From positions 111,764 through 175,763 of the IMG/VR virus record IMGVR_UViG_3300025679_000001: a DNA stretch of 64,000 nucleotides. One strand, 5' to 3'. Shown one piece after another: positions 13,817 through 36,818 of the stretch. The notes beneath the pieces are model-generated. The model did no database searches, was not told the origin of the DNA, and was given only the letters and a program-made list of their open reading frames with translations. The position numbers and the translations under genes are program-made. Source of the DNA: a virus. Numbering within the stretch: the stretch's first letter is position 1; each line of letters starts with the position of its first letter.

Positions 13817-15184
13817 TTAAAGGATGTTGTCGATCAGGATACGCCTATAATAAAGGTTGGAGTCCTTGGTGAGGGTCAGTGCCATGTTGCCGACCGCACC
13901 GTTCTGCCTGCCCAGAGAGAATGGGTTCTGAGCCATCGCATACCTTGTCTTGAAGGCGATGTTCGGCTGGTGGGTTGCAGGATCGACGACCCTTGAGAAT
14001 TGCAGCGGAACGTAAGGGCAGTAGTAGATGCCGGCGTCCATCGGGCCTGTGCCCTTATAGCCGAGAGTCAGGTAGTTGCCCGTGGTGTATGGGTCGATGT
14101 AGACCCTGTAGCGCTTCATTGCGACTCCGGCGAATGTGTTGCCGGTGTCGTCGACCGCCAAGCCTTCGTTGTTGAGGGCAGGTGTGTAGTCGAGGACTCC
14201 CGCCATCTGGAGGGCGGATGCCACGTTGGACGAGCAGATGATGATGTTAGCCTTACCGCGCCTAGTGTCCTTCGCGACTTGGTTAGCTTCGAGGTCGAGG
14301 AAGAAGCAGAGGCCTTTCAGCTTTTCACCCAGCCACCTACCGTTGGAGTCGGTGTCGAGGTCGAAGCGTCCGACCGTGGTCGTGCCAGTGGTCGCACCGC
14401 GTACGGCGGTGATGTTGATCGTGCGGATGAGTTCGCGGTTGATGTCGGAGACGATCTCAGTGGAGAGGATCTCGGAGAGGAGCTTTTCAGCGTCCATACC
14501 GTGAACCTTCTGAAGGTCGTGCGCGAGTTCTACCGAGTATTGAGCCTTGAGTGCGCGGCCACCAGGAGAGACCGTCATACGGTCGATGGTGAACGACATT
14601 TCAGGGAACGCTGCGGTGTTAGAACCGAGGGACTCGAGCGATGACGTTGACATTCCAGCGCCATAGTTGTAGAGGCCAGACTGCGCGAGGTTAGAGGTGG
14701 TGGTCGAGTTACCTGGGAAGGTACCGACGTTCTTGTGACCCTGTGTGTTGGCGTTGTCCACGATGGTGGACCATGAGGTGTCCGGCTCTGCGTAGAAAGC
14801 TTCGTTACCGGAGTTGTTACCGTAGAGTGCGCGTAGGGCGAAGACCAATCCGGAAGGACCGTTCATCGGCTGAACACCTGCGATGTCGTAGGCCATGAGG
14901 TTAGGCATGGAACGACGGAGCATGGTGATCAGGATAGGATCCTGGTACTGCACCTGGCCGGAGCCGAAGTTGTTGGTCGGGGCGTCTTCGAACAGTGACA
15001 TCGGAGACATACCGCGCTGAGACTTCATCTCAGAGACAGTGTTCTCGATGATCTGTGCTAGACCACCGCGAGCCCATTCGCTCTTGATGGCTGGGAGGTT
15101 AGGAGCATCGATGATGTCCTTCCACTTCTCGACGAGCGACTGGTTGATGCCATACTCGCCAGTCTTTGCAGTTGTTGCGTCCAT
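13817..15184 (-). CDS. 23: gp23-like major capsid protein
   Basis: The 455-residue protein has the T4-family HK97-fold sequence, with the N-terminal region rich in helices, then SLFE at residues 63-66 followed by DAPTNNFG. The LFE fits the LxE rule of the prohead protease and sits where T4 gp23 is cut (after residue 65). The mature protein forms the capsid lattice. An AATAAATA late promoter lies 42 bases upstream and a strong terminator directly downstream, so high expression is expected. No separate gp24 vertex gene is seen in the window. Confidence 0.96.
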   Translation of the reverse strand: MDATTAKTGEYGINQSLVEKWKDIIDAPNLPAIKSEWARGGLAQIIENTVSEMKSQRGMSPMSLFEDAPTNNFGSGQVQYQDPILITMLRRSMPNLMAYDIAGVQPMNGPSGLVFALRALYGNNSGNEAFYAEPDTSWSTIVDNANTQGHKNVGTFPGNSTTTSNLAQSGLYNYGAGMSTSSLESLGSNTAAFPEMSFTIDRMTVSPGGRALKAQYSVELAHDLQKVHGMDAEKLLSEILSTEIVSDINRELIRTINITAVRGATTGTTTVGRFDLDTDSNGRWLGEKLKGLCFFLDLEANQVAKDTRRGKANIIICSSNVASALQMAGVLDYTPALNNEGLAVDDTGNTFAGVAMKRYRVYIDPYTTGNYLTLGYKGTGPMDAGIYYCPYVPLQFSRVVDPATHQPNIAFKTRYAMAQNPFSLGRQNGAVGNMALTLTKDSNLYYRRILIDNIL

Positions 15185-15259: not shown

Positions 15260-16012
15260 TTATTGGCGACTCTTAAAGCCCTTTAGAATGTGTGCTACCA
15301 TCGGGTCACCGCTCTGAACAACCTTGGAGCCCGAAGCTCCTTCGTTGATCTCTCCGCCGTCCACTGGGTTTCTATTCTGCTCCGTGATCGGCGCCTTGAA
15401 GAGGGTCTCCTTCAGGGAGGAGAGCTTCTTCTTAAAGTCTGCGGCGTCCTTGAACCTTACGTTCTCGGCGAGCTCCTTGAGTTTAGCCGCTTGGGTGTCT
15501 GGTAGGCCGGCAGCAGCTTCTGTGACTGACTGTTCGACCTGCCTCATCTCCTCGCGCTCGGCGAGGGCGATGTTCTGGTTGATCTGCTCGTTCAGCTTAG
15601 ACGTGAGTTCCTCGTTGCGATCAGCCAGGCTCTCGAGGATGCCTTCGGCCTCTTCAGGAACTTCTAGGTTGTGCTCGACGAAGAGGTTAGCCAGACCGCC
15701 CATGAGCGACTCTGCCATGTCGACCTTCATCGAGGACTCGATGGCAATCTCGTTCTCGCTGAGCCACTCTTCTGCTACGTAGGACACGTACCTGTCAAAT
15801 GCGTCTTCCAGGAGGGCCGAAGCTTCTGTCAAGCGCTCTTCGACGATGTCGTCGATAGTAGAGTCGATCTCCTCGATCATCTGCTGGGCCTTGGCCTCTA
15901 CGGCTGCCTCGAAGATCGTCCTAACGCTCTCCTTGGCTTCATCGGAGGTGTTCTCGTTGAAGAGCACCGAGAGGTCGGCGTTCTCCTCGATCTTCTTTTT
16001 TTCGTCAGCCAT
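15260..16012 (-). CDS. 22: gp22-like prohead scaffold protein
   Basis: A 250-residue, very acidic, almost entirely helical protein lying between the protease and the capsid gene, as in T4. Several potential LxE/IxE sites (for example ILESLAD, ALAERE) fit the known destruction of the scaffold by gp21 before packaging. It has its own AATAAATA promoter. Confidence 0.92.
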   Translation of the reverse strand: MADEKKKIEENADLSVLFNENTSDEAKESVRTIFEAAVEAKAQQMIEEIDSTIDDIVEERLTEASALLEDAFDRYVSYVAEEWLSENEIAIESSMKVDMAESLMGGLANLFVEHNLEVPEEAEGILESLADRNEELTSKLNEQINQNIALAEREEMRQVEQSVTEAAAGLPDTQAAKLKELAENVRFKDAADFKKKLSSLKETLFKAPITEQNRNPVDGGEINEGASGSKVVQSGDPMVAHILKGFKSRQ

Positions 16013-16064: not shown

Positions 16065-16289
16065 TTAGGCTTTGAGGCGGTACTCGGCCTTGTCGATACC
16101 AAGGTTCCGCTTCTCCCACTTATCGTAGTGTTTGGTCGCGGCCTCACCGTTCTGGTTCTTTTCTCTCTGGCCCTTGGCGAAGTGGTTTTGCTGGTTCAGA
16201 GTGGCCTTCCTGACGTAGCGCTTGAGGAGCTTGTCAGATACTTCCGCCAGCTGGAAGGTCTCTTCTAGAAATTGGTGTAGCGTTTTCAT
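16065..16289 (-). CDS. Small internal head protein with capsid-targeting N-terminus
   Basis: The 74-residue basic product begins MKTLHQFLEE, very close to the T4 internal-protein capsid-targeting sequence, and LEE is a gp21-type cut site. A second site, QLAE, is followed by VSDKLLKRYVRKA, the helical module repeated in the polyprotein at 22445-26221. Cleavage would leave a Lys/Gln-rich peptide of about 57 residues in the head. The ATG shares a base with the gp21 stop. Confidence 0.7.
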   Translation of the reverse strand: MKTLHQFLEETFQLAEVSDKLLKRYVRKATLNQQNHFAKGQREKNQNGEAATKHYDKWEKRNLGIDKAEYRLKA

Positions 16290-16960
16290 TACTTGATCAG
16301 CGCCTTCATGTACTTGTTGAACGAAGAGATTGCCTGCTCCTCGAGCTCCCTCTTGGACATCTTCTTCACCGACTCGACGATCTGTTCGACCCTCTGCCAG
16401 TGACCAGACGGGTCACAGACCCAGTCAGCGTTCTCCATGATGCCGTTGACGAAGGCGTCCGGGGCGGATGGGTCAGCCACGATGTCTGCTGCGGCGGCTA
16501 GTCTGAAGTCTTTTTGGACCTCCATGATGCCGGACTTGTTAGCGACCACGTTGCCGAGACCCCTCGAGGAGACTCCCAGGCGGGCGCCGGACTCGTGGAG
16601 ACCCTTGGCGATGTTGCCGTACGGGGTGTCGGCGAGTCGAGCCTTGCCCATGAAGTTGTTGCCGTCTCGCTTTAGAGACGTAGTCATGTGCGAGACGCGC
16701 TCGAGGTTGATCATAGGACCCTGCGGGTGTCCCAGCTCGCCGTAGCCCTGACCCTTGGCGATGCGCTCCTCGTTGTAACGGTTGACCTCTCCCTCGAGGA
16801 CCTCGAGAGGGTACATTCGTTTGTTACGGTTCACGATGCCACCCTGAAGAAAGATACCCTCGATGTGAAGGTGCTTCTTCTGTACTCCGGCTGACCCGGC
16901 CAGCTCGACGAGCTCTTCGGTGAACTTGACTTCTTCGGTGATCTCTGAGATGAGGCGCAT
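16289..16960 (-). CDS. 21: gp21-like prohead core protease
   Basis: The 223-residue serine protease has the catalytic His78 in GELGHPQG and the Ser in GVSSRG (131/132), the arrangement of T4 gp21 (His85, Ser140). It cuts capsid, scaffold and internal proteins after (L/I)xE. In this genome potential substrates are unusually numerous (see the CTS genes and the polyprotein). The C-terminal helical tail (KKMSKRELEEQ) should be removed by self-cleavage. It overlaps its neighbours by one base on both sides. Confidence 0.95.
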   Translation of the reverse strand: MRLISEITEEVKFTEELVELAGSAGVQKKHLHIEGIFLQGGIVNRNKRMYPLEVLEGEVNRYNEERIAKGQGYGELGHPQGPMINLERVSHMTTSLKRDGNNFMGKARLADTPYGNIAKGLHESGARLGVSSRGLGNVVANKSGIMEVQKDFRLAAAADIVADPSAPDAFVNGIMENADWVCDPSGHWQRVEQIVESVKKMSKRELEEQAISSFNKYMKALIK

Positions 16961-17547
16961 TATAGTTTCTTACCTAATAGACCGTGAATGATTTCTGCGT
17001 GAGCCTTGTGCGCGACGTTAGGCGTGCCATAGCTCCTGACTGAGATGATGTGCTTTCCGTCGTGATCCTTGCCACGCTGGTAGACCGAGTGGTGTGTCAC
17101 TGCCCCAGTCTTATTGTTCTCGACCCTGAAGCGAACGCGAGGACCGTAGTCGTCCTCTTCGTGGTGAGGAACTTTCCAGGCTTTCATCTTGCCGCGCGTA
17201 GCATGGCCGTGAGTGATGTCTCCAGCTTCCATATCGCCCATCAGACCTCCCTTGTGAACGGATATGGCGTGATCGGCGCCGAAGTTGAAGCGCTTGAGTT
17301 CGGAACTCTTCTTGACTGCCTCGTCGATTTGCTCGGACTCTTCTAGTTCTGTGTGGTGCACCTGTACCTTGTAGCGACCCTTCTGGACCAGAACTGAGCC
17401 GTCCAATCGCTTGGCACCGACTACTCTAACGCGGTCGCCGTGCTGAACCACCCTGGAGCCGGGACCCTTGTAGGTCTTGATGCTTCCGTCACCGGGCATG
17501 TGATCGGACTTCATAGACTCATCTAGGAACTGATAGAACGTTTTCAT
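16960..17547 (-). CDS. Internal head protein with two protease-site modules
   Basis: The 195-residue protein starts MKTFYQFLDE (capsid-targeting sequence ending in LDE). A second site lies in EESEQIDE at about residue 70-77, followed by AVKKSSELKRF. The remainder is basic and His-rich with beta-like segments (VRFRVENNKTGAVTHHSV). It should be packaged and cut into peptides of about 67 and 118 residues. It directly precedes gp21. Confidence 0.65.
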   Translation of the reverse strand: MKTFYQFLDESMKSDHMPGDGSIKTYKGPGSRVVQHGDRVRVVGAKRLDGSVLVQKGRYKVQVHHTELEESEQIDEAVKKSSELKRFNFGADHAISVHKGGLMGDMEAGDITHGHATRGKMKAWKVPHHEEDDYGPRVRFRVENNKTGAVTHHSVYQRGKDHDGKHIISVRSYGTPNVAHKAHAEIIHGLLGKKL

Positions 17548-18133: not shown

Positions 18134-18988
18134 TTACTTAGCCGGGACTTTAGCAGTGCCAGCGAGCTTATCGACAGCCTGATGGGTTCCCTTTAAGCGG
18201 TTCCATGCCTTCTTGGTGTGACGATCGATCTTCTTGCCATAGTAAGTGTTGACGTTGTCGCGCATCTTGCTCGCCGCGTCGCCGCCAGCCCAGTTGCGGT
18301 TACCGGCATCTATGTTGTCGTGTGCAGCTCTTCTTTCAGTCTCATTCTCACCCTGTCGTTGTGAGTGGCGCTGTCCGCTCTCGGCAGCGCCCCTGAGGTA
18401 CCTGTGAGCGAGGTCCTTGGAGATCTCGTTGACCTCTGTCGACTCCCTCGTCAACCTACCGACTGCCTTCTTGATTCCGTCATGGCGCTTCGCCGACCTG
18501 CGAAGATGATCTTCTTCACGTTTGTGGAGCAGTTCAGCATCTGGGTCGCTTCCGAACCCTCCGGAGTGAGACGACGGAAGGGCCCTACCTTTGTTTGCGT
18601 CGTGGGAAGCGTCGTTCTTAGCGCGACTCAGATCGTCGCGCGCCTTGGCGGTGGACATCCTGCGGTGATGGGCGTAAGCCATGTCGTCACCGGCTTTTTG
18701 AATATAACTGCCGAGCGTCTTCTTGGAGAGCTCGTTGATCTCCTCGGACTCGTCTAGGAACTGGTGTAACGTTTTCATCTTCTTCTCTTCCTTGATCCTT
18801 GCGATCTGTCTGGAGACGACGCCCGCTTTTCGCTGGGCCTCGCCCTTTAGTCTCTTAATGTGTTTCCAGTCCCTCGAGGACCGAGCGCCGTCCTGTACTG
18901 CACTCTTGAGGTCGTCGACCACCCTCATTCGGGAGTCGTGCGACCTCTTGAACGCTATCAGAGCGCTCTGTCCCCTCTCAGAAGCCAT
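18134..18988 (-). CDS. Internal head protein with an internal capsid-targeting start
   Basis: The 284-residue frame contains MKTLHQFLDE at residue 71 (ATG at 18778), a complete capsid-targeting sequence, followed by EINELSKKTLGSYIQKA and later EVNEISKDLAHRYLRGA, two copies of the cut-site-plus-helix module. The N-terminal 70 residues are highly basic and begin six bases after the preceding stop, without a clear ribosome-binding site. Either the real start is 18778 (214 residues, GGAAGAG upstream) or both forms are made. Packaged peptides are the likely end product. Confidence 0.65.
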   Translation of the reverse strand: MASERGQSALIAFKRSHDSRMRVVDDLKSAVQDGARSSRDWKHIKRLKGEAQRKAGVVSRQIARIKEEKKMKTLHQFLDESEEINELSKKTLGSYIQKAGDDMAYAHHRRMSTAKARDDLSRAKNDASHDANKGRALPSSHSGGFGSDPDAELLHKREEDHLRRSAKRHDGIKKAVGRLTRESTEVNEISKDLAHRYLRGAAESGQRHSQRQGENETERRAAHDNIDAGNRNWAGGDAASKMRDNVNTYYGKKIDRHTKKAWNRLKGTHQAVDKLAGTAKVPAK

Positions 18989-18994: not shown

Positions 18995-19816
18995 TTAGCC
19001 GCTCAGCCCTGACGGGTTCTTCATGATGCTGTCCGGGATAGCCTTGAAGTTTACGTCCATCTTCTCCTGAGGAGAAAGGTTGCGACCCTTCAGCTTCATG
19101 GCGTCGCGCATCTTCCTGATAGAAGACTTGCTCTCGGTGTCTGATGGACCCACACCAGTGTCGTTCGGGATGCTAACGCCGTCGTCGCCCTCCTCGGACG
19201 CCTCGTCTTCAGCTCCACCACCTTCGTCCTCTTCACCGAAGAGGATGGCGTCGATCTTGGCGCGGATAGCAGAGTTAAAGACCTCGGCCAGGGCGACGTG
19301 GTCGCCGGCCAAGACCGCTGAGGTCACCGACTCCAGGTAGTTAGGATCCCACTTCCCGTCGTCGGGAATGGCGTCCATCTTCGGGCGTGTGCGTCCCATC
19401 TTCTCTCCTTCAAATCCTTTTGGTTGCGCGTCGTAGCGGCCGTTGAGGTCCGCCGGGGGTTCTGAGCCCGGTACGACGCTGGTCTCGTTCGAGTAGCTGA
19501 CGTCTCCTTGACCGTGCCAGTCGTTGTTCGGCAGACCGTCGAGTCTCGGCTTGTTCTTGCCGAACGTAGCGTCCGGGTCTTCCTTTACGAGCTTCTTTGT
19601 AGCCATCGCAATTCCCTTTTTTCTCTTGAGAGCCTTCTCATAGTTGTTAGTATCACCGTCTGCATGAAAGGCTCGACTTCTGTCGGATTTCACGTAACCG
19701 ATCATTACGCGGTGCAACCCAGCCTTGTCGGCGTGCTGGATGGCAGTGTCTGTCGCGCGGTTAATGTAACGGCCGAGCGTCTTCTTGGACAGCTCGTTTA
19801 TAGTGTTCTTCGTCAT
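18995..19816 (-). CDS. 67: gp67-like prohead core protein fused to an internal-peptide module
   Basis: The 273-residue product starts TINELSKKTLGRYINRA, the same INE-site helix module as its neighbour. Residues about 163-215 (LESVTSAVLAGDHVALAEVF then a Glu/Asp/Gly-rich run) resemble T4 gp67 (PIP), an acidic 80-residue core protein encoded next to the portal. The gene position, between gp20 and gp21, matches T4. TATAAATA lies 17 bases upstream. A fusion of PIP with an internal peptide would be a lineage-specific feature. Confidence 0.6.
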   Translation of the reverse strand: MTKNTINELSKKTLGRYINRATDTAIQHADKAGLHRVMIGYVKSDRSRAFHADGDTNNYEKALKRKKGIAMATKKLVKEDPDATFGKNKPRLDGLPNNDWHGQGDVSYSNETSVVPGSEPPADLNGRYDAQPKGFEGEKMGRTRPKMDAIPDDGKWDPNYLESVTSAVLAGDHVALAEVFNSAIRAKIDAILFGEEDEGGGAEDEASEEGDDGVSIPNDTGVGPSDTESKSSIRKMRDAMKLKGRNLSPQEKMDVNFKAIPDSIMKNPSGLSG

Positions 19817-21546
19817 CTAGAATCCTTCGAACTATTTATAACTTGGGGCTGTTGTGGAAGGTTCGGGTCCTGGGCTGGGTTGCCCATCTGACCGTTGTCG
19901 GGCATCACTGGCGCGCCGAGCTGTGATGGGTCACCGTCCTGGAATCCCTGAGGCGGGAAGTCACCGCCTCCGCCGCCCATGTCGACTCCGTTGCCCTCGG
20001 GCTTCGGCGAGTAGCGCGGGTCCATCTTCTCGTTGGCGATGTCAGTGTCGAGCTTCTCGAGGTCGTCGTCCGTCTGGCGAAGGATCTTGCGGCGGACGTA
20101 GTCGTGCGAGAAGTAGATGCCGACGAAGTCCTGGACGTCCTTGGCCACCTCGACGCGCCTCGACAGGATCTCGTTGTCCTTGACCTCGGCGAAGTGGTTG
20201 TCGTTGGCGAACTCGAACCAGCCTCCGCGGTAGAGCTCGGAGATCTCCTGTTTGGCGATGATGTTCTTGAGTACCAACTGCTTCGAGAGGGCCTCGAACA
20301 GGAGGAGGGAGAACCTGCGGCGCAGGCGGTCTATGAAGCGGGAGAACTTGACCTCGTCGCGGGAGATCTCGGCGGCTTTCGAGAAGGTGAACCCTGACGT
20401 CTCCGGGTTCATTCTTGAGATGGGAACGTGGAGGGCCCTGTAGAGCTTCTTCTGGAAGTACTCGACGTCCGTCAACTCGCCGAGGTTCTGACCGGCAGGC
20501 AGCGTCTCGATCTGGGTTCCCTTGGAGCCTTCGCGCCTCGGCAGCCAGTAGTCCTCGAACATCGTCATGAACCTACGGTCGTCGCGGATCTGGCCGTTGG
20601 ACTGGTCGTAGACGAGCTTGTTCTTGTGCTTGATCATCATGTCGTTCATGTACTGCTCTGCCTTCTGGCGGGGCAGGTTGCCGACGTCGATGTAGAAGAT
20701 CCTGCGCTCTGGTGCGCGGACGAACCTGTAGATGACGAGCGAGTCCTCGAGGGACCTCAGCGCGTTCAGTACCCTGATGGCGCTGTGAAGGTAGCTCAGG
20801 ATCATGTTGTTGTTGGGGTCGGTGACCCCGGAGTGCGCGTAGATGATAGAGTCGGAGGCGATCTTGAGTCCGTAGACACCGGCGTCACCGGCCTGCGAGA
20901 AGCTCTGGGAACCGGGAGGCATCTTGCCGAACCCTGCGGAGGAGTAGACGAAGTACTCTGACTTGAGTTGCGTGAGGTTCATCGCCACGCCCTGAGGGTC
21001 CCTGACCCTCTGGACCTCCTTGATCTTACGGATCTTGCGAGGGTCTATGTAGCGAAACTCCTTGATGCCCTCGTCGGGCGCCTTGTCGTCGATGATCACG
21101 TGATAGTAGAGCCTGCCGTCCACGTACCAGCGCTTGAAGATCTCGTACGCGGTGTGGTTGAAGTCGAGGAGCTCGATGACTTTCTTGAACTCTTCGTTGA
21201 TCTTGTCCTGGATGGCCTTGTTGGCGAAGACCGAGGAGTCCTCGAAGGACTCCATGTTGAAGCTGACCACGTCGGAGTCGCTGTCCAGAGTGACAGCCTC
21301 GCAGACGATGTCGTCGACCGCGTACTCTACGTCAGGGTAGAGGATCATCTCCCTGTACTTGGTGATGAGCTCCGACTCTGAGGAGATGGACCCATTGAGG
21401 TCCATGTAGGTGCCGTAGAAGTTACCTTCGGCGACGACTGTTGAGCCGTCGTCGTTCGGCGGCGGGGTGAAACTGGCGCGCTTCTCCTTCTCGTCGTCCG
21501 CCTGGTTACGGCGCTGTATCTCAAACCCGAAAAGTTGCCATGCCAT
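19813..21546 (-). CDS. 20: gp20-like portal vertex protein
   Basis: The 577-residue protein follows T4 gp20 throughout: FNHTAYEIFKRWYVDGRLYYH, the FRYIDPRKIRKIKEV crown region, RFVRAPERRIFYIDVGNLP and the MNPETSGFTFSKAAEISRDE clip. It forms the dodecameric ring that nucleates the prohead and conducts DNA. The C-terminus is Gly/Pro/Asn-rich. T4 gp20 is 524 residues; the extra length is in the termini. Confidence 0.96.
   Translation of the reverse strand: MAWQLFGFEIQRRNQADDEKEKRASFTPPPNDDGSTVVAEGNFYGTYMDLNGSISSESELITKYREMILYPDVEYAVDDIVCEAVTLDSDSDVVSFNMESFEDSSVFANKAIQDKINEEFKKVIELLDFNHTAYEIFKRWYVDGRLYYHVIIDDKAPDEGIKEFRYIDPRKIRKIKEVQRVRDPQGVAMNLTQLKSEYFVYSSAGFGKMPPGSQSFSQAGDAGVYGLKIASDSIIYAHSGVTDPNNNMILSYLHSAIRVLNALRSLEDSLVIYRFVRAPERRIFYIDVGNLPRQKAEQYMNDMMIKHKNKLVYDQSNGQIRDDRRFMTMFEDYWLPRREGSKGTQIETLPAGQNLGELTDVEYFQKKLYRALHVPISRMNPETSGFTFSKAAEISRDEVKFSRFIDRLRRRFSLLLFEALSKQLVLKNIIAKQEISELYRGGWFEFANDNHFAEVKDNEILSRRVEVAKDVQDFVGIYFSHDYVRRKILRQTDDDLEKLDTDIANEKMDPRYSPKPEGNGVDMGGGGGDFPPQGFQDGDPSQLGAPVMPDNGQMGNPAQDPNLPQQPQVINSSKDSR
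19833..19840 (-). promoter_or_regulatory. Late promoter TATAAATA
   Basis: Perfect octamer 16 bases upstream of the gp67-like ATG, within the last codons of the portal gene. Confidence 0.8.
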
Positions 21547-21563: not shown

Positions 21564-22172
21564 TTAGACCGTCTGCCCGTCGCTGGAGAGGATGTCGACG
21601 TCGTTCATCCAGTAGTCGAACTGCATCTGGACTTGAAACTCTGTGATCTTGTCGCGGTCGTCCCAGCTCAGGTCGATCGGGGCTACGACCGAAGGCCAGC
21701 AGCCGACGAGCTGGTAGGTCCTCAAGAGAGAACCGTCCTTGCCGTACTTGTAGACGAAACCGTCAGTCTTGTAGGTGGCAGGGTTGGACCCGAACGGTGC
21801 GGCCGTCGTGTTCAGGCGCGCAGTGTTGATGTTGTGGGACCAGCGCTCCATCACCCTGCGGACGAGGTGATCCTCGTCGTTGATGATAGTGAGGCTCCAG
21901 TCCGGGTAGGTGCGGTCTCCGGCGGTCTTGATCTCACGACCGAAGTAGCCGACCGGCGTCACGCCGAGGATCATCGGTGGGATGGACGCACCCTTGCAGG
22001 TGAACGTCAACTTTTGGTTGGCCGAGGCGTCACCGCTGGCGACTCCCGGGATAGTCATGCGAACCTCAAACTTGGAGGGGCGATCACCGCCTCCACTGAG
22101 TGCTGACTTAAATTGTTCTACGTCGAATGCGATGTCACACCTTCCCTCATCCGGCCATAAGTAGCAGGACAC
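21564..22172 (-). CDS. 19: gp19-like tail tube protein
   Basis: Residues FTCKGASIPP, TPVGYFGREIKTAGDRTYPDWSL, NDEDHLVRR and the terminal FQVQMQFDYW match T4 gp19. The 202-residue length exceeds T4 (163) because of an N-terminal extension of about 30 residues (SCYLWPDEGRCDIAF). It polymerises into the inner tube of the contractile tail. TATAAATA stands 15 bases upstream. Confidence 0.93.
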   Translation of the reverse strand: MSCYLWPDEGRCDIAFDVEQFKSALSGGGDRPSKFEVRMTIPGVASGDASANQKLTFTCKGASIPPMILGVTPVGYFGREIKTAGDRTYPDWSLTIINDEDHLVRRVMERWSHNINTARLNTTAAPFGSNPATYKTDGFVYKYGKDGSLLRTYQLVGCWPSVVAPIDLSWDDRDKITEFQVQMQFDYWMNDVDILSSDGQTV

Positions 22173-22202: not shown

Positions 22203-22445
22203 TTAGTACCCAATAGGATCCTTAAGAGAGCGCTGCTTGGTCATGTAGGCGCGCTTCTTAGCTCCTTTGTGTTTTGTTGCCTGGATGAGGGCCATGGCAC
22301 GGCGCTTCTGGACCCTCCAGACGAAGGCGTCTTCGCTGTCTTTTCTGCCCATGGAGGATTTCTCCTCGTCCTCGTAGTGCTTCTTGATGCCAGGAAGGGA
22401 ACCTTTCCCGTAGATCTCCGCGAGAAACTGGTGAAATGACTTCAT
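22203..22445 (-). CDS. Small internal head protein with capsid-targeting N-terminus
   Basis: The 80-residue product begins MKSFHQFLAE, ending in an LAE cut site, followed by a strongly basic, Lys/Arg/Met-rich body. Removal of the first ten residues would leave a 70-residue DNA-binding-type peptide. The ATG shares its first base with the polyprotein stop (TAATG). The sequence after the cut, IYGKGSLPG, resembles LYGKGKLDD after the IDE site in the polyprotein. Confidence 0.7.
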   Translation of the reverse strand: MKSFHQFLAEIYGKGSLPGIKKHYEDEEKSSMGRKDSEDAFVWRVQKRRAMALIQATKHKGAKKRAYMTKQRSLKDPIGY

Positions 22446-25400
22446 TACTTGACCTTCTTGAAGAGCTTGTCGGACTTGGCCTTCTGGACCCTCAGCTGGG
22501 CGAGTGTCTTGCCAGCCTTCACCTCGTCAGCCTCGTAGTCCTGCTGGGTCTTGACCTTCTCGTTCACATCTTCTTTGAGTTTTCTAGAGGCGATGAGTTT
22601 GTTCTTCATACGATCAGTCTTTTTCCTGTTGTTGTTCCACGTGCGAATATCGCCAACTCTTTCCCAAGAAGCTCGGTGTTTACGAGCACTCTCACGATCA
22701 CCTTTCTTGTCAGAATCGTTTGCAGCATCATAGTGGTGTGCTGCTATATCATCCAATTTTCCTTTGCCATAAAGCTCGTCGATCTGAGTCTCTTCAGTAG
22801 CAGCAACCTTAGCCCAGTACGGCCTCTTAGTCATCCCTTTACCCTTACCGTTGTCTAAGTGACTAAGCGGGATGCTGTGCTTGTTCGCGTCTTCAGGAGA
22901 GAGGTGACCGAAGCGACCGCGCTGGTGATCTCCAGCCAGCTTAGCAGCGGCTAGTTGGATGCCGCCGGAGCGGTTGCCGTGTTTGCGTCCCAGCGCCCTT
23001 TGACTGTCTCTACCAGCTTGCGTCTCTCGAGTCCCGTCGTGGTTCATCCTGTCGTGATCCATAGCCTTATATGATTTGTCTATAGAAGCACCCTGAATGT
23101 AACTCAATGCTGTAGCTTTCGAGATCTCGTCGAGTTGATCGTACTCCTCGTAACGGGTTTTCTTGTACAGGTCGAGGTGCGTAGAGTGATCGCGCTTGTA
23201 GTCCTGGGAGGATGACCTGTGGAGAGGTCCGCCCTGCTTGTAGAGGTGGGCGTGGGGATTGTCCTTGCCTAGGCGCCCGCGGACCCTGAGTGAACCGTGT
23301 TCCTTCTTCGCGGCGTCGATGTGTACCTGGGCGTGCTCGTCGTTCTTAACGCGCTTGATGAAGTGACTGCCACCGTGATAGCCGTCCGCCTTGCCGTGCT
23401 TGGCGAAATAGTCGTCGCGCTGGGTCTTGCGCGTTGCTTTATGAGCCATCTCTCTCGCGTGCAGCTCTGCCTCGCGCTTGACAGGAGCCTGGGTGAGCGC
23501 CTTGGCGATACCTGAAGCCCTGTTGATAGTCTTCCTGGTGTGGTTCTTGACGTCCTTGTCGAGAAAAGATCGCCTGCGATCGTCGTTGTGGTACTTGATC
23601 GAGTTGGCCGCTTGATTGGCGTAGGAGTAGAGGGTCTTTGATGATACTTCGTCGAGCTGCGTCTCCTCGGCGTAGCTGTCCTTGTACTTACCGGTGTACT
23701 TGAATGGCGGGTACTTACGACCGGCGATCTTGCCGCCGGCGTTGGCGGCCTGTTTCATGAGGTGGATCCTGCGACGGGTCTTCTCGCCGTTGCCGTGAAT
23801 TTGTGTGAGCAGGCCGCGCCTGACTGGGTTCGAGTGTGTGTTCTTGTCCTTAAGGTCACTCTCTAGATCGCGAGCCTTAAAGGCGTAGTACTTGGCCTTG
23901 ATGTCCGCGGTGTGCGGGGTGTTGGATTCGTTCACGTCTTCTTTAGCCAACCTTCTCACTGCTTGAGCTAATCCAGAGATGCGCTTCTCTGTCTTTTTTG
24001 CATGATGCTTAGCGGCATTCTGATACACGTCTGATTCACCGTGAGCATAAGAAGCGTATGCGTGCATGCGTGAGGACGCTTCTGCTTCTGCCCTGTTAGC
24101 GTACCTCTTGAGAGTCGCTTTAGAGAGTTCGTTGATCTCAGTTTCTTCTTTCATCTTGATCTCGTGCTTGCTCGCTATGGTCTTACCGTGAACGCCGTGC
24201 TTGCCAGTCTTGACCATGAAGGGGTGCATATCCATCTCATGGCCGTAGTTGACGGCTTGACGGTGGCTTCCCTTGACGTGCATGTGAAGGCGCTCTGAGC
24301 CGTTGTCTTGGACAACAGTGTGCCATTCGCCAGCGGCTTCGTCAAGATCTTCTTTAGTCCACTCGCCTTTCCCGTACTTCTTATCAAGAAAAGAAGATGA
24401 AACTCTTGGTCTTACTCCTGTTCGTCTAGTAGTATCTTTACCCATGTCCAATTCTCTTTGCTTCTTGACATTGACTTTGCCGTGTTTGTCCATAGCACCA
24501 AACACGCTGCCTGCCATTCTCGAAATGTCGTCAGCAAATGGATTCTTAGCTTCGTTCTTAGACTTCTCATTTTTTAGACGGTTTAATGCAGCTACAGTTA
24601 GTGTCTCACCACTCAAATCGTCTGGCTTCTTATTAGACTTTCCAATTCGTGTGTATGATGGACGAGCATGAGCTTCGACCACGCTCTCGTAACGCTGGCG
24701 GCTCTTGTTGGCCCTGATCCTGTCGAGTAGTCCTTGTGCTCTGTTCAACGCCATGTCGTGCTTTCCTGCTACTCTGTTGTGATAGTCTGACTGACGATCG
24801 TGCTCGTCCTCGGCCTTTCGATTGCCGGACTCGAGGTGCTTGATCGCGATCTTGTTGTGGGTGATGGCCTTCGACACGTGATTGACGTAGCCGTCCCTGT
24901 GACGCTCGATAGCGGTCTTCAGTTGGGCCTCGTTGTGGACCTCGGCGAGCTGGGTCTCTTCTTTAGCCATCTTGAGCCCACGGTTTCTCTTATCGATAAC
25001 GTCGCTGGCGTCGTCGTACTTGTGTATGTTGTGCATATAAGCCCTAGAGCGCTTCGAGTAGGCCGCGCCTCTGGACTTCTTAGCCTTGGCGAGGTAGCGG
25101 TTCTTGAGTTCCCTAGAGATCTCGTCGAGCTGCGTCTCTTCGTCGAAGCGCACTCTCTTGTACTTCTTGGTCTGGTGATCAAAGATGTAGTGCTTATCTG
25201 TCAGTCCTGGACCACTGTGCGCCTGTGTGTACTTTTTACCGTTCTCATTGTGTTGAGTAAAGTTCACCCTAGAGTGCAGAGTTTGCATCCTGTCTATGAA
25301 ACGGTCATAATTTGTATAAGGATTCTTCACTTCGTCGAGCTGCGCCTCTTCCTTATAATCCTTGGCCAAGTGGCTCGTCCAGTCTTTACCACTCTTCTGT

Positions 25401-26221
25401 GCGTTCATCGACTGTTCCCACGACCAGTTGGCCCCTTGTTTATCGCCACCGGCCTTCTTCTTGCCGGCGTTAGCAGCATGACTTTGAGCGTCCCTGTGCT
25501 TGTTCTTGAATGAATAGTGTGGCTTCTTAAAGTCGTCGACTGGAGCCAAACGATGCACTACGCGGTCAAGTCCCGCGTTGCGCTTAACGTGTGTCTGTGT
25601 CTTCCCAGTGTCTCTTCCTGCCTGAGCGTCACGAACGCCCTTCTTGCCGGCTTCCAAAGAAGCCTGGTCGATGGACTTATCGTAGTACGCTTTCATCTTG
25701 CCGGCTGAGATCTCGTCGAGCCGCGTCTCTTCGTTCATGTTCTTATAAGCTGCCCTGTGCTCGTCTGCCTTCTTCATGTGGGACATCGCCTTTGGGCTGC
25801 GCTTCTTTGACCAAGAATAGGTCTTGGAGTTGAAGTCCGCGACCTCTGCCTTGTGTTCGTGATGGCGCTCCATGGCACGGTGATAGCCGATCATGTAGCC
25901 GTTCTTCTTGTGTTGCCTGGCGAGGTTCAAGTATTCGTCACCTGCACTCTCGTCGAGCTGCGTCTCCTCGTGCACGCTCGGGTGAGCGTACCTGCAAGTG
26001 TGCGCGTCGGACCCGGTGTTGCCGTCGCTCTTGACGACGAGACCGGGCTTGTCGTTGTCGCGGTGCTCGTAGTAGTGCCCAGCACCGCGCCTGCCGACTA
26101 GTCTGAAGCCCTTCTGGAGCATGTGCTTGTGTGCCGAGACTTTGTCCGGAAACTTTTTCCTAACACCATCGAGCAGACCGTCTGGGTTCTCAGAGAGTTC
26201 GTTGTTCATCTTCTTCACCAT
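22445..26221 (-). CDS. Giant basic protein, candidate capsid-targeted polyprotein cut by gp21
   Basis: About 1258 residues, Lys/Arg/His-rich and predicted mostly helical. Repeated sites EETQLDE, EETRLDE, EEAQLDE, EETQLAE, KEDLDE, EETEINE, EYDQLDE, EETQIDE and two KEDVNE divide it. Counting from a TTG at 26242, cuts would fall after residues 18, 98, 177, 304, 374, 434, 635, 705, 772, 865, 1039, 1156 and 1228, giving pieces of 37-201 residues. Many sites are followed by (I/L/V)SxxxLxxYxxxA. T4 gp21 cuts after (L/I)xE, so maturation into a dozen basic packaged peptides is the simplest reading. Starts at 26221 (AGGG upstream, overlapping the HNH stop) and 26209 are both possible. The N-terminus lacks the full MKTFxQF pattern but has NELSE. 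Confidence 0.75.
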   Translation of the reverse strand: MVKKMNNELSENPDGLLDGVRKKFPDKVSAHKHMLQKGFRLVGRRGAGHYYEHRDNDKPGLVVKSDGNTGSDAHTCRYAHPSVHEETQLDESAGDEYLNLARQHKKNGYMIGYHRAMERHHEHKAEVADFNSKTYSWSKKRSPKAMSHMKKADEHRAAYKNMNEETRLDEISAGKMKAYYDKSIDQASLEAGKKGVRDAQAGRDTGKTQTHVKRNAGLDRVVHRLAPVDDFKKPHYSFKNKHRDAQSHAANAGKKKAGGDKQGANWSWEQSMNAQKSGKDWTSHLAKDYKEEAQLDEVKNPYTNYDRFIDRMQTLHSRVNFTQHNENGKKYTQAHSGPGLTDKHYIFDHQTKKYKRVRFDEETQLDEISRELKNRYLAKAKKSRGAAYSKRSRAYMHNIHKYDDASDVIDKRNRGLKMAKEETQLAEVHNEAQLKTAIERHRDGYVNHVSKAITHNKIAIKHLESGNRKAEDEHDRQSDYHNRVAGKHDMALNRAQGLLDRIRANKSRQRYESVVEAHARPSYTRIGKSNKKPDDLSGETLTVAALNRLKNEKSKNEAKNPFADDISRMAGSVFGAMDKHGKVNVKKQRELDMGKDTTRRTGVRPRVSSSFLDKKYGKGEWTKEDLDEAAGEWHTVVQDNGSERLHMHVKGSHRQAVNYGHEMDMHPFMVKTGKHGVHGKTIASKHEIKMKEETEINELSKATLKRYANRAEAEASSRMHAYASYAHGESDVYQNAAKHHAKKTEKRISGLAQAVRRLAKEDVNESNTPHTADIKAKYYAFKARDLESDLKDKNTHSNPVRRGLLTQIHGNGEKTRRRIHLMKQAANAGGKIAGRKYPPFKYTGKYKDSYAEETQLDEVSSKTLYSYANQAANSIKYHNDDRRRSFLDKDVKNHTRKTINRASGIAKALTQAPVKREAELHAREMAHKATRKTQRDDYFAKHGKADGYHGGSHFIKRVKNDEHAQVHIDAAKKEHGSLRVRGRLGKDNPHAHLYKQGGPLHRSSSQDYKRDHSTHLDLYKKTRYEEYDQLDEISKATALSYIQGASIDKSYKAMDHDRMNHDGTRETQAGRDSQRALGRKHGNRSGGIQLAAAKLAGDHQRGRFGHLSPEDANKHSIPLSHLDNGKGKGMTKRPYWAKVAATEETQIDELYGKGKLDDIAAHHYDAANDSDKKGDRESARKHRASWERVGDIRTWNNNRKKTDRMKNKLIASRKLKEDVNEKVKTQQDYEADEVKAGKTLAQLRVQKAKSDKLFKKVK

Positions 26222-26799
26222 TTGTCCCTGTTGTCCTTCCAAGGGAGCATCTGTAGGTTGTCCTTACCGCCGATGATCTCTGGTGAGATGTTGTCTAAGA
26301 ATCCCTTCTTGACGGAGATCCTGTGGTCTAGTTGCCAACCACCATCGACACCACATCGGGTTCTTGGGTGAGCGGCTGGATTGATTTCAGTCTTATACAA
26401 ATTGTAGTTTCTCTTAGTGATAGAAGCGACCTTGTTCCAATACTTCTTGAACTCAGTCTTTTTAGGATTCCAGCGAGGGTGTTTTTCGCCTTGTAAATGT
26501 GGATAAGTTCTACCTTTAGTAGCAGATCCGTAGTTGTTTCCGATCATCGTTTTTGTCTTGCGACACTTATAGCATGTATCAGTGTTCCTGGAGAAACGCT
26601 GTACATATTCGTTCTTGCACTCATCACACTTACACTTGACGTTTACGTTAGATTCTGAAAGAAGATCTTTCACGTCTACTTCTATAGTGTCAATGTTTAA
26701 GTTACGTCGATCCAAATTAGAAACAACATAACCCTTTGATTTCCAATGTGCTATATTAGAGGAGCACACTTTTATAGTTACATGCTGGCTGATGATCAT
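26215..26799 (-). CDS. HNH homing endonuclease inserted between gp18 and the polyprotein
   Basis: The 194-residue protein has a zinc-binding N-terminal part (KCKCDECKNEYVQRF ... CYKCRKTK) and a C-terminal HNH domain (GGWQLDHRISVKKGF ... GGKDNLQMLPWKDN). Its codons are AT-rich compared with both neighbours, a sign of transfer. TATAAATA stands five bases before the ATG, so the message would be leaderless. The 3' end overlaps the polyprotein start by a few bases. Confidence 0.88.
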   Translation of the reverse strand: MIISQHVTIKVCSSNIAHWKSKGYVVSNLDRRNLNIDTIEVDVKDLLSESNVNVKCKCDECKNEYVQRFSRNTDTCYKCRKTKTMIGNNYGSATKGRTYPHLQGEKHPRWNPKKTEFKKYWNKVASITKRNYNLYKTEINPAAHPRTRCGVDGGWQLDHRISVKKGFLDNISPEIIGGKDNLQMLPWKDNRDKW

Positions 26800-26804: not shown

Positions 26805-26812
26805 TATTTATA
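26805..26812 (-). promoter_or_regulatory. Late promoter TATAAATA abutting the HNH gene
   Basis: Perfect octamer followed by GATGT and the ATG. The spacing places the expected transcript start on the start codon. Confidence 0.75.
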
Positions 26813-26837: not shown

Positions 26838-28886
26838 TTAGAACTTATTCACGACTTCATCAAATTCCACACCAGTGCGTACTGCTACGAAGCGGAGCGT
26901 AATAAAATTTATTGAGCGCGCAGGTTTTATGTATATGTCTCCGACGAACTCGTTGCCGTCGATGACGTCGGGAGTGTTGTTGGTCTCGTCGCAGACGACC
27001 TTGTAGTCGTAGATGCCGCGGCGACCCTCGATGTCCCTCAGGTACGGTTCGACCATGTTGACGAAGGACGCCCTGGTGAACTCGTCGTTGAACTCGAACA
27101 GGGTGAACTTAGCGGCCGTGCTGATCGCCTTCTCTAGGACGATGAACAGTCTGCGGACGTTGATCCTGTCGAAAGCACTAGGCTTGTTGAGGAGAGTCTT
27201 GTCCCCGAAGAGGACGGTGCCCTGTCCTGGGAAGGTGACGACCGGGTTGACCCCGTTCTTGTAGAGGACGTCCCTCTGGGCTTGGTTCGGGTTGAACGCT
27301 AGGCGGATGATGTTCTTGATCTCGCCGCGGTTGAAGCCGCCTGGAGACCACCACGCGTCCCTCACTTCCTCTGTCCTGATGATCAGGCCAGCGGTGTCGC
27401 CGTTGAGCGGGACCCAGCGGAAGACGTCGTTGTACTTGTCGTACATGTACTTGTAGCCGGAGTCGAGGACGCCGTAGCTAGTAGTCCTCAGCTGGTTCCT
27501 GAACGCGACCACGTCGTCGGTGACCGAGAACGCGTTGTTCACGACGTCGTTGATGTCCGGGGAGATCAGGACGATGCAGTCCTTGCGGGTCTCGCAAATG
27601 TTGTCGATGATGTAGTTTGCCAACTGCTCGCCCGCCACTCCGCCACGGGCTTTGCCTGCGATGATCAGCGAGACGTCCACGTCCTCGGCGGACGCGAACT
27701 GGTCGTAGGCGCGGCACAGGTTCGAGACCGCGATGGCGGACTCGGTGTCCGGTTGCGTTCCGTTGACGAATGAGGCTGAGAACGGGATGGCGTTGGTCTG
27801 AGGGGACACTAGGAGAGAGTTGGCGGAGACTGCCCCGGCCCTGTCATTGGTCACCCAGACGAACTTGGAGCCGTTGTCTAGGACGTTCTTATAGTACAAG
27901 GTTCCGCCCTGGTCAGCGGTGGCGTCGGTGGCGCGGGAAAGGTTCTTCCAGACTTCGAGGATCGTGTTGACCTCTCCGGTGAACTGCCCGTCCTGATCGA
28001 CGACGACCACGTGCATCTCGTCACCGGCGCTAGTGTCATTGGCCGAGCGCGCGGCGACGAAGTTGGAGGTCGTCGGTGGTCCGTCGACGGTGTCGTAGTA
28101 CTCCCAGAGCCTAGTGATCGCTGAGCTCGTAGAGTTGGTGGACTGGACGGTCACGTTGTCCGAGAGGAAGTACTTGGTCGCGAACGACAGAGTAGCCGTG
28201 GCAGTCGCGTTGGCGGTCACGGACGGGGTACCAATCGAGGTGATCTTGAGGTACTGGCTCCCGACAGTAGAGTTGCCGCCGACGACGTAGTCGCCTACTG
28301 ACAGTTTGCTCAGTACGAACTGTGCTGTCGAGTTGACGGAAGTGTTGGTGGCCGACCCCGAGTTGGCGGTCAGCGTGGCTGTGTTCGAGCCGACCCCGAA
28401 CGCCAGAGAGACCGTGATGGTCGAGTCGTTGGAGTAGAGGTTGCTGGAGTACTGAGCGGCTGACTCGCAGGTGGAGACCTTGAGTGAGTTGCCCTTAGTA
28501 CCGGGCCACTTTGCGTAGTAGTAGGAGTTCGCGTCGTAGGAACCGGCCATCGCCAAGAAGGCGGCCTCGTTCTTGATCTGGACTGCGAAACCGTTCGAGA
28601 CGAAAGCGACCGCGTTGAGAGCGGTGTTGGAGGCTGCGCGGGAAACGTAGAGGCTGTCGCCATAGGCGAACACGGAGGACGCCGTGAGCCAGGTCTCCCC
28701 GTTCGAGTTCGTAGGTTGACCGTACAGGAGGACTAGTTCGTCCTCGCTGGTCACGAGCTGGCGCTCTTCTACCGGTCCCCACTCGAAGACTCCACCGATA
28801 GCGGCTTGCGTGGTTGATACTGCAGGGATCGCCGTAGTGAGGTCGATCTCCTGAATTTGAACGCCTGGCGAGACCATGAATCCCAT
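26838..28886 (-). CDS. 18: gp18-like tail sheath protein
   Basis: The 682-residue protein begins MVSPGVQIQEIDLT, continues with AAIGGVFEWGPVEERQLVTS and ends with the conserved C-terminal sheath domain (FTRASFVNMVEPYLRDIEGRRGIYDYKVVCDETNN). It forms the contractile sheath. Length is close to T4 gp18 (659). The middle (residues about 130-330) is the variable outer domain, Ser/Thr/Asn-rich. Confidence 0.97.
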   Translation of the reverse strand: MGFMVSPGVQIQEIDLTTAIPAVSTTQAAIGGVFEWGPVEERQLVTSEDELVLLYGQPTNSNGETWLTASSVFAYGDSLYVSRAASNTALNAVAFVSNGFAVQIKNEAAFLAMAGSYDANSYYYAKWPGTKGNSLKVSTCESAAQYSSNLYSNDSTITVSLAFGVGSNTATLTANSGSATNTSVNSTAQFVLSKLSVGDYVVGGNSTVGSQYLKITSIGTPSVTANATATATLSFATKYFLSDNVTVQSTNSTSSAITRLWEYYDTVDGPPTTSNFVAARSANDTSAGDEMHVVVVDQDGQFTGEVNTILEVWKNLSRATDATADQGGTLYYKNVLDNGSKFVWVTNDRAGAVSANSLLVSPQTNAIPFSASFVNGTQPDTESAIAVSNLCRAYDQFASAEDVDVSLIIAGKARGGVAGEQLANYIIDNICETRKDCIVLISPDINDVVNNAFSVTDDVVAFRNQLRTTSYGVLDSGYKYMYDKYNDVFRWVPLNGDTAGLIIRTEEVRDAWWSPGGFNRGEIKNIIRLAFNPNQAQRDVLYKNGVNPVVTFPGQGTVLFGDKTLLNKPSAFDRINVRRLFIVLEKAISTAAKFTLFEFNDEFTRASFVNMVEPYLRDIEGRRGIYDYKVVCDETNNTPDVIDGNEFVGDIYIKPARSINFITLRFVAVRTGVEFDEVVNKF

Positions 28887-30597: not shown

Positions 30598-31002
30598 ATG
30601 GACACTAAGAAGATGTGCGAGCTGGCTACCTTCATCGAGGGACGTCGCGTCAGGATGATAGACTGGTTCACTGATTCATCCCCATCAATGAGTACGAGCA
30701 AACCGCGCAACAGTTCTGACAGGGAAACCTTTCTTGACAAGCAGAAGAGCGAGGAGTGTGGTACTGCGTGCTGCATCGCTGGGTGGGCCATGCTCATGAA
30801 TCCTGATTTAAGCTGCAGCGATAAAGTCGCAGAACACTTGGGTCTCAATGCGGAAGAAAAAGACTTACTCTTCTTTCCTTTCGAAGGCGATCGCCCGACA
30901 GAGTTCGTAGAACCTCATGAACAGTCGAAACGCGCCGTTCAGGTTCTCAGGGGTCAGATCAAGCTTACTGATAAGTGGGTCACGGAGCCAGAAGAGACTT
31001 AG
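30598..31002 (+). CDS. Early protein with CGTACCIAGW motif, second of a tandem pair
   Basis: The 134-residue paralogue of the preceding product begins MDTKKMCELATFIEG (compare TKKMLELADFLEK) and keeps the CGTACCIAGW motif. GAGGAAG precedes the ATG, two bases after the previous stop. It ends in overlapping stops with the convergent gp17 gene. Confidence 0.7.
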   Translation: MDTKKMCELATFIEGRRVRMIDWFTDSSPSMSTSKPRNSSDRETFLDKQKSEECGTACCIAGWAMLMNPDLSCSDKVAEHLGLNAEEKDLLFFPFEGDRPTEFVEPHEQSKRAVQVLRGQIKLTDKWVTEPEET

Positions 31003-32989: not shown

Positions 32990-33428
32990 CCTCACCGTCC
33001 TCGATGCCATGAGACTTATTGATCATCTTCAATAGGTCGTCGGTGGACCCTACCATCACCACGTTCTGGGTGTTGTTCACTACCTTGTCAGCGCCGGGTG
33101 TTCCCTTGGCGTTGACTACGTCCTGCTTCTTCTTGTTCAGGTCCACCAGCTTGTCGAGGGCGAAAGTCAGTTTGTCGATCATGGTGGCCACGACCTCGTA
33201 AGCCCTCGGAGCCTCCGACGCGTCAGCGACCTCTTGGACGGCGGCGAGGGAGTCGCGACCCTGCTCCACCATCTCACGGATGTTCCTGCGGGCGAACTCG
33301 AAGTCGTCCTCTTGTGAAGTCTGGGTGACCTGTTGGTTGCTGTGACCTCTGGACGGCGGGATCACCTCTACTGAGGGAACCGCGTGCTTGGGGCCTAGGC
33401 CTAAGTGTTCGTCGATCCTATCTGCCAT
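32976..33428 (-). CDS. 16: gp16-like small terminase
   Basis: The 150-residue protein contains DDFEFARRNIREMVEQGRDSL and ASEAPRAYEVVATMIDKL, the coiled-coil DNA-recognition core of T4-type gp16, followed by a charged C-terminal part. It regulates gp17 and recognises the packaging substrate. The position upstream of gp17 matches T4. Confidence 0.93.
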   Translation of the reverse strand: MADRIDEHLGLGPKHAVPSVEVIPPSRGHSNQQVTQTSQEDDFEFARRNIREMVEQGRDSLAAVQEVADASEAPRAYEVVATMIDKLTFALDKLVDLNKKKQDVVNAKGTPGADKVVNNTQNVVMVGSTDDLLKMINKSHGIEDGEDDID

Positions 33429-33681
33429 GCGTGTACCCCCACTTCTTCAGCTGGGAGTGGGCCTTTTCTTTGTTCTTTTCAACGAAGTCGAACTTGTTCG
33501 TGTGCCCGTACACTGCCCCGTTGTGGAGGTGGTGCACGGTCATCTCGTGGTTGTCGTCGTCCTCGTCGTTTGTGTTCGACCAGTACTCGGTGTGCTTGAT
33601 GCGCTGGAGCTTACCCTCGTGATCCCTCGCGTGGGTCTCCTCCACGTCGCCCTCTGCTAGGAAGTCGCTAAAGGTTTTCAT
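33418..33681 (-). CDS. Small internal head protein with capsid-targeting N-terminus
   Basis: The 87-residue product begins MKTFSDFLAE (LAE cut site), followed by an Asp/His/Asn-rich body. Unlike its siblings the mature part is acidic to neutral (NTNDEDDDNHEM) with several His. It overlaps gp16 by 11 bases and gp15 by 4. Confidence 0.65.
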   Translation of the reverse strand: MKTFSDFLAEGDVEETHARDHEGKLQRIKHTEYWSNTNDEDDDNHEMTVHHLHNGAVYGHTNKFDFVEKNKEKAHSQLKKWGYTHGR

Positions 33682-36425: not shown

Positions 36426-36818
36426 CTATCTTCCTAGGATCCTGTGAAGGAGCCCCTGCTTCTTTGGCGCTGGCGCTGAGCCCCTACGGGCCACGCTCTT
36501 AGCAAAGTCAGCTAAGGCCGTGCTCTTCTCTGGTTCAGCAGCTGGTTTAGTCGTGTTCTGGAGGTGTTCTGCTGGCTTCGGTTCCGGTCTCGGCGCCTTT
36601 CCGGCTTCCTTGACGCGACGCTTCTGGTCAGCGTCCCGGCGAGCTATCTCGACGTTGTCGTCTGGCGTCAGCTTGTGGTAGGAGATCTTACCGTCCGAAT
36701 GGTGGACTAACTTCGCCCCTTCGGAGTTGGTGTCGCCCTTACCGAAGGCGTGCTTGCCGATGTACTCGGTGCTGACTTCGGTGCGCTCGGCTTCTAGTAG
36801 TTGCTTGAATGTTTTCAT
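36426..36818 (-). CDS. Small internal head protein with capsid-targeting N-terminus
   Basis: The 130-residue product begins MKTFKQLLEAE, a capsid-targeting sequence with an LLE/LEAE cut site. The rest is basic with a Pro/Ala/Lys linker (KAPRPEPKPAEH) and a basic tail (RRGSAPAPKKQGLLHRILGR). GATAAATA stands four bases before the ATG. Confidence 0.65.
   Translation of the reverse strand: MKTFKQLLEAERTEVSTEYIGKHAFGKGDTNSEGAKLVHHSDGKISYHKLTPDDNVEIARRDADQKRRVKEAGKAPRPEPKPAEHLQNTTKPAAEPEKSTALADFAKSVARRGSAPAPKKQGLLHRILGR

Follow-up and report, generated by a model that had tools for sequence, protein, structure and literature searches.

The window analysed here, a stretch of 64,000 nucleotides representing positions 111764-175763 of the 175,763-base IMG/VR virus record IMGVR_UViG_3300025679_000001, contains on its minus strand an open reading frame (ORF; positions 22445..26221, stop codon included) whose 1258-amino-acid basic product carries 12 internal sites resembling those of a prohead protease. 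Judged from sequence comparison, this product is probably a head polyprotein processed by the prohead protease gp21, which is the best reading of the ORF. The initial annotation had described a basic protein of ~1260 residues, and this ORF is real: the ATG start yields 1258 amino acids with a net charge of about +75, and an upstream TTG at position 26242 yields 1265 amino acids with a net charge of +76. The ten (L/I)xE sites and two KEDVNE sites listed there were all located at the residues named. The acidic context ascribed to them was found in eight of the ten (L/I)xE sites, the exceptions being residues 635 (KEDLDE) and 1039 (EEYDQLDE), and only about four to five of the twelve sites (374, 705, 865 and loosely 1039) are followed by (I/V/L)SxxxLxxYxxxA, a continuation that had been attributed to most of them.

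The motif EExx[LIV][DNA]E occurs eight times in the polyprotein, compared with a mean of 0.009 in composition-preserving shuffles, and a chance origin of the motif was ruled out, as none of 20,000 shuffles reached eight. Since the plain motif [LIVM]xE by itself is only mildly enriched (18 vs 11.8 in shuffles), the acidic context carries the site signal. Two further sequences fit L/I/V-x-E, namely LSE↓N close to the N-terminus, which is the weaker one (the arrow marks the predicted cut; residue 18 in the numbering of the initial annotation), and VVE↓A at residue 523.

A single-sequence search of IMG/VR with the polyprotein gave no match, and the full-length protein had no tblastn match in 50,697 phage records; no PHROG match was obtained either, hence none to phrog_237 (gp22) or phrog_1064 (gp67), nor was any significant Pfam or PHROG domain or any peptidase domain found. 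The family came to light solely through a search with the repeat module, as had been proposed, in which the DNA pattern for E(x)SKKTLGxxY detected at least 119 IMG/VR stretches from water and soil. The polyprotein form is not unique and represents a widespread and apparently unnamed architecture. The commonest module, xE↓(L/I)SKKTLGSYxxKA (SK module), is attached in these stretches to targeting leaders or to gp67, or lies inside gp22, and the family ORFs carry the site as EExEQ(L/I)DE↓(L/I/V)SKKTLGSYxxKA. The search pattern itself fixed the glutamate at P1, and therefore copies of the module body outside its selection were tested. Among the matches listed, to which the other counts of this paragraph also refer, a P1 glutamate with an aliphatic P3 residue stood directly upstream in 51 of 56 such copies, against a background of 0.023. 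In ORFs that bear a further family feature the site was found in 49 of 49 copies, and in the remaining ORFs in two of seven; the five copies without it probably match the short body pattern by chance. A position-specific scoring matrix (PSSM) of the site gave 5.5 hits per 1000 amino acids in family ORFs, 0.05 in shuffled sequences and 0.29 in the non-family ORFs of these loci, part of this excess being due by construction to the training on SK sites; 130 of 361 PSSM sites are not followed by an SK body. The median spacing of sites is 77 amino acids, at least two sites occur in 130 ORFs, and the largest number at the PSSM threshold is nine, reached by the window ORF and one other.

When the modules were clustered with the site motif left out and mutual coverage required, one module family was found to adjoin many different neighbours; moreover, one site-to-site unit of locus L067 is duplicated in tandem. 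In a portal-selected sample, an ORF with at least two sites was present in 15 of 80 neighbourhoods; since several such ORFs encode gp22 or the portal, the true share is nearer 10. The SK module and the site pattern are also shared by PHROG 5709 (unknown function) and by proteins of the phages Cr30 (AGS80949.1), P-TIM68 (AIR93496.1) and S-SKS1 (SWZG_00082). The surmise that similar sequences may exist as hypothetical proteins proved right for these three phages, and the annotations assign neither function nor processing. As a separate observation, the phiM12 ORF SmphiM12_070 (L132 5852-6259) encodes a small protein before gp21 with an N-terminal region, MKSFKxLxE-VxxP, that is shared with IMG/VR polyproteins such as that of L067.

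The gp21 enzyme of T4 cuts after L/I-x-E, and a leader of ~10 residues that is removed by gp21 gives the T4 internal proteins entry to the prohead (PMC9026906). The window encodes an intact-looking gp21 (16289..16960, minus strand) that matches the solved T4 enzyme (5jbl) with an E value of 5e-22 and retains the conserved histidine and serine (His78, Ser131/132). Among the matches listed, 16 of 22 module-bearing records encode gp21, including all 12 records of 80 kb or more; the six that lack it are fragments shorter than 76 kb. A targeting-like start was likewise found, among these matches, in 36 of 120 family ORFs with a complete 5' end compared with 35 of 1019 other ORFs (p 5e-19), many of which may encode packaged proteins too. 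Additionally, the family is linked to two proteins of the T4 core that are known gp21 substrates, gp22 and gp67 (PMC9026906): gp67 (phrog_1064) was detected in family ORFs of L101 (8.5e-6), L114 (5.1e-6), L115 (4.7e-5) and L112 (1.8e-4), and modules lie inside gp22 (phrog_237, E values down to 3e-82) in L076, L024 and L112. In these gp22 proteins (L076 3269-4432, L024 2677-3849 and L112 1177-2475), one or more SK modules are located near the N-terminus.

The genome of the window also encodes five small proteins with T4-like leaders, namely MKSFHQFLAE↓, MKTLHQFLDE↓, MKTFYQFLDE↓, MKTLHQFLEE↓ and MKTFSDFLAE↓, all on the minus strand. The stand-alone 80-amino-acid gene 22203 (22203..22445) starts with the first of these, followed by IYGKGSL, and its mature product (IYGKGSLPGI) resembles the polyprotein segment following site 1156 (z score 5.2, 12 of 30 residues identical). 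Gene E (16065..16289) represents the minimal case of leader, site and one SK-type module, MKTLHQFLEE↓TFQLAE↓VSDKLLKRYVRKAT...KRNLGIDKAEYRL; its module (VSDKLLKRY) aligns with a polyprotein module (LSKATLKRY) with a z score of 5.9. Gene D (16960..17547) combines the leader MKTFYQFLDE↓S with a second site, SEQIDE↓A, and gene B (18134..18988) contains the internal sequence MKTLHQFLDE↓SEEINE↓LSKKTLGSY and a TEVNE↓ISKDLAHRY module. The leader MKTFSDFLAE↓G belongs to a small protein at 33418..33681, and a small basic protein at 36426..36818 (minus strand) has the leader-like start MKTFKQLLEAE. In gene A (18995..19816, minus strand), the module MTKNTINE↓LSKKTLGRY precedes an acidic part that is gp67-like by eye, phrog_1064 not being matched; gene A occupies the position of T4 gene 67 after gp20.

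The commonest module was predicted by AlphaFold2 from 67 sequences to form a basic two-helix hairpin (predicted local distance difference test 81.5, predicted template modelling score 0.39), with a median net charge of +9 over about 71 residues; a fold search of the PDB with the predicted hairpin gave no match. Recognisable domains are found between sites as well. A HicA toxin domain directly follows VEQL(D/E)E↓ at five loci among the matches listed (L029, L035, L061, L119 and L023), with a Pfam score above cut-off in L029, L023 and L061; this module would be a toxin by family assignment. A DUF192 module is present in L010 (E 4e-28), and DUF3008 and DUF5824 also occur among the inter-site modules. 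The combination of basic hairpins with recognisable domains such as HicA and DUF192 favours a mixed cargo of basic packing peptides plus effectors. The initial annotation had offered DNA-condensing peptides or effectors; some modules of relatives, such as HicA, have the look of effectors and not of DNA-condensing peptides.

Distant relatives provide evidence from virions. The P-TIM68 polyprotein consists of an SK module and other units, and homologues over parts of its length are present in 367 phage records. One match, ORF160 of S-CREM2, is a basic protein (+30) that has several xE sites, EETEISE↓G among them; mass spectrometry of purified virions recovered 7 unique peptides of this protein, covering 13.1% of it (PMC10665884, Table 3). 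The match in S-SCSM1, a phage whose virions were analysed by mass spectrometry (PMC9602691), is SSCSM1_29, annotated as 'virion protein'. The cytidylyltransferase ORF154, also detected in S-CREM2 virions (PMC10665884), starts with the textbook leader MKNFSSFLTE↓A. Cytidylyltransferase-like proteins with a capsid targeting sequence (CTS) leader are encoded by L019 (4145-5584, MIGSFKQYLVE↓E), L068, L105, L109, L118 and S-CREM2 (ORF154, L216 9609-10469), and such a protein is probably a packaged, perhaps injected nucleotidyltransferase.

The strongest competing explanation is that the polyprotein serves as additional scaffold in the manner of gp22, gp67 and gp68 and is shredded by gp21, the fragments leaving before packaging, so that the sites would be real and the products without a task in virion or host. 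Three observations are in line with it: multiple cuts turn the T4 proteins gp22, gp67 and gp68 into numerous fragments, most of which leave the head (PMC9026906), the SPN3US propeptides are cut multiply and mostly lost (PMC10052503), and modules are spliced onto gp67 and gp22. This explanation is nevertheless unlikely, as the module bodies are conserved, folded-looking and basic whereas the scaffold is acidic, HicA and DUF192 domains are placed between sites, a unit of this kind is also encoded on its own behind a targeting leader, and relatives were detected in purified virions.

The comparison with the nearest relatives bears on the sites themselves. The closest relative, L007 (portal 78% identical in the best segment), encodes a 631-amino-acid protein (polyA) at the place of the polyprotein and a 634-amino-acid protein (polyB) after gp20. 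Four units of the window polyprotein match polyA units in changed order, the unit 859-1032 matches the N-terminal unit of polyB, and the separate window genes A and B correspond to units within the single polyB gene. Most of these alignments start at, or a few residues from, the first residue after a predicted cut, and the segments between sites behave in evolution as units of their own. A second relative, L136, carries at the same place a multi-site basic ORF of other content with the sites EEVELDE↓, ESVEVDE↓ and ESVELDE↓. L007 additionally encodes, at 1308-1703, a 131-amino-acid protein with the leader MKTFGQFLSE↓ and conserved-looking Cys/His residues, without a Pfam match, that is possibly a packaged enzyme.

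The exchange of modules breaks at the xE boundary, the same boundary ends the canonical leaders (FLAE↓, FLDE↓, FLEE↓), and the P1 and P3 residues fit the gp21 rule in the unselected copies counted above. All three observations speak against the idea that the KEExxLDE linkers are binding or assembly repeats docking one long working chain to the core or the shell. This idea draws on the length and acidity of the motif, which exceed what gp21 needs (L/I-x-E alone, PMC9026906), and on the retention of the window linker in many places where the adjoining content differs, but it is quite improbable. Least probable by a further step is a string of effectors that enters the host uncut and acts there, or is processed there by another protease. 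This might be suggested by the polyvalent proteins, which in phages and conjugative elements have multiple domains and are in many cases injected (PMC5512222), and by the toxin-like modules of relatives; the window ORF lacks a detectable peptidase domain, and its sites fit the head protease of the phage itself, which is active before packaging.

A polyprotein processed by gp21 shares features with several known systems. The T4 internal proteins IPI-III and Alt, which carry a CTS and are processed by gp21, are likewise head-internal cargo with L/I-x-E processing, mostly basic and likely ejected; CTS-like leaders are found here on the sister genes, and T4 has one mature protein per gene, whereas the window ORF would give about 13 and is without a strong CTS. 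The T4 core proteins gp22, gp67 and gp68 are also multi-site gp21 substrates, and relatives of the window polyprotein fuse family modules to gp67 and gp22, but the core proteins are scaffolding and largely expelled, whereas the window modules are diverse, resemble domains and in most cases are basic. Polyvalent proteins similarly place several conflict or effector domains on one polypeptide delivered to the host, but their processing was proposed to involve an embedded peptidase (PMC5512222) instead of sites for the external gp21, and no shared domains were found. In the phiKZ/SPN3US system of the gp175/gp245 protease and ejection proteins, many head-internal proteins are cut after glutamate, some of them multiply, and the accessible part of the source (PMC10052503) describes propeptides removed from one mature protein and contains no strings of separate modules. 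The architecture accordingly combines T4 internal proteins with multi-site cutting and extends both the T4 internal proteins and the polyvalent proteins. A published description of such a polyprotein was not found among the open-access papers covered by the searches, and its novelty is provisional.

Several points weigh against a gp21-processed head polyprotein. Its own leader, MVKKMNNELSE↓N, is only weakly CTS-like, in contrast to the clear leaders of its sister genes (22203, B, D, E and 33418), and the L007 polyA and the L136 ORF are without an obvious leader; 'capsid-targeted' therefore rests on the module family and the neighbours. For every family member, cleavage at the sites is predicted from sequence. 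Core proteins are cut many times as well and yet mostly expelled, and some modules are not basic. ORF160 and SSCSM1_29 share other P-TIM68 modules and not those of the window, so that the link is one of architecture and not direct homology, and the 13% coverage of ORF160 is compatible with a cut or an uncut protein. Of the capsid-targeted multi-site polyprotein proposed by the initial annotation, the central idea of a substrate that a T4-type prohead protease cuts at many sites into about a dozen packaged units is strongly supported by comparison, whereas the leader is weak and the cleavage predicted. The assignment of the sites as protease sites is the part most likely to be right; the prohead entry of a protein with a weak leader, and whether the products are kept and injected or expelled, are the least certain parts. 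We infer the entry, cleavage, retention, condensation and injection steps of the following mechanism.

The polyprotein would be a late-expressed precursor of head-internal proteins that goes into the prohead core together with the scaffold and is cut there by gp21 after glutamate at (L/I/V)-x-E sites within KEExE(L/I)DE linkers. The cuts would yield about 13 products with masses of 4-23 kDa, most of them basic and several forming helical hairpins. These would remain with the packaged DNA, which the basic ones may neutralise and condense, and at least some would reach the host by ejection, like T4 IPI-III and Alt, to serve there as accessory or effector proteins. The modules would be interchangeable cassettes, used as a stand-alone gene with a leader, in a polyprotein string or spliced onto gp67 or gp22.

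The predicted products, 37-201 amino acids in length and encoded on the minus strand, would be small basic peptides, as had been suggested, for 11 of 13 segments (net +2 or more); the exceptions are residues 629-698 (net -1) and 1-91 (net +1), numbered from the ATG. Product 1 (25949..26221; 91 amino acids) bears the short leader and ends with HEETQLDE↓. Product 2 (25712..25948; 79 amino acids) begins with SAGDEYLN, ends with NEETRLDE↓ and resembles the SAGDKLLQ module of L018 by eye, and product 3 (25331..25711; 127 amino acids) extends from ISAGKMK to KEEAQLDE↓. Product 4 (25121..25330; 70 amino acids) is a homologue of the module with which L007 polyA begins (28 of 52 residues identical), and a pattern search with it retrieved the L007 contig again and no other match. 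Homology to polyA also applies to product 6 (24338..24940; 201 amino acids; polyA 354-502), which may be cut again at VVE↓A, product 7 (24128..24337; 70 amino acids, WHTVVQDNGSERLHMHVKG...; polyA 177-260) and product 11 (22775..23125; 117 amino acids, ISKATALSYIQGASIDKS...; polyA 261-353), whereas the counterpart of product 10 (23126..23647; 174 amino acids, VSSKTLYSY and a GRLGKDNP domain) lies in a different L007 gene, polyB. Product 5 (24941..25120; 60 amino acids, ISRELKNRYLAKA...) looks hairpin-type, and product 8 (23927..24127; 67 amino acids) is an SK-type module, LSKATLKRYANRA..., modelled by AlphaFold2 as a helical hairpin. Product 9 (23648..23926; 93 amino acids) ends with AEETQLDE↓, product 12 (22559..22774; 72 amino acids, LYGKGKLDDI) is the segment that resembles the mature 22203 product, and product 13 (22448..22558; 37 amino acids) is a lysine-rich tail.

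The genome belongs to a T4-type myovirus that encodes gp17-gp23, and its T4 head and tail block lies on the minus strand; judged by gp23, Stenotrophomonas phage DLP6 (55% identity) is the cultured phage closest to it. This block comprises gp17 (30999-32672), the tail sheath gp18 (26838..28886, phrog_23), the tail tube gp19 (21564..22172, phrog_45), the portal gp20 (19813..21546, phrog_213), the scaffold gp22 (15260..16012, phrog_237) and the major capsid protein gp23 (13817..15184, phrog_138). The polyprotein ORF is located between gp18 and gp19, downstream of an ORF (26215..26799, minus strand, phrog_5104) that is HNH-endonuclease-like by eye and whose stop overlaps the polyprotein ATG (ATGGTGA); the polyprotein stop in turn overlaps the start of gene 22203. 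Owing to these overlaps, the polyprotein appears to belong to a late unit with translational coupling, which is preceded by the T4-type late promoter element TATAAATA (26805..26812, minus strand); six elements of this type occur in the window compared with 0.2 expected. The HNH-like ORF, which separates gp18 from the polyprotein, is replaced in L007 by an unrelated ORF; in the window, a homing-endonuclease ORF (12971-13738, phrog_655) adjoins gp23. Between gp20 and gp21, the window encodes a 190-amino-acid Asn/Thr/Ser-rich protein with almost no Lys/Arg (17552-18124), possibly a head decoration protein, with look-alikes in DLP6 (L128 13538) and L136 (13399).

An even chance may be given to the broader proposal that a widespread class of T4-like phages uses prohead-protease polyproteins as loading cassettes, by which a single ORF would supply many independent head-internal proteins, HicA-like toxins included, in equal quantity to the capsid and subsequently to the host, with modules exchanged between genes and phages at the cut sites and grafted onto gp67 and gp22 as alternative prohead tickets. 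If the polyprotein reading is right, a double-stranded DNA phage loads its head by means of a cleaved polyprotein, a trick of RNA viruses, and employs the maturation protease for the processing. Cultured phages such as Caulobacter phage Cr30 and the cyanophages make the polyprotein reading directly testable. It would furthermore provide modular cargo carriers for protein delivery as well as a sequence-readable rule for hundreds of packaged, probably injected proteins that are now filed as hypothetical.

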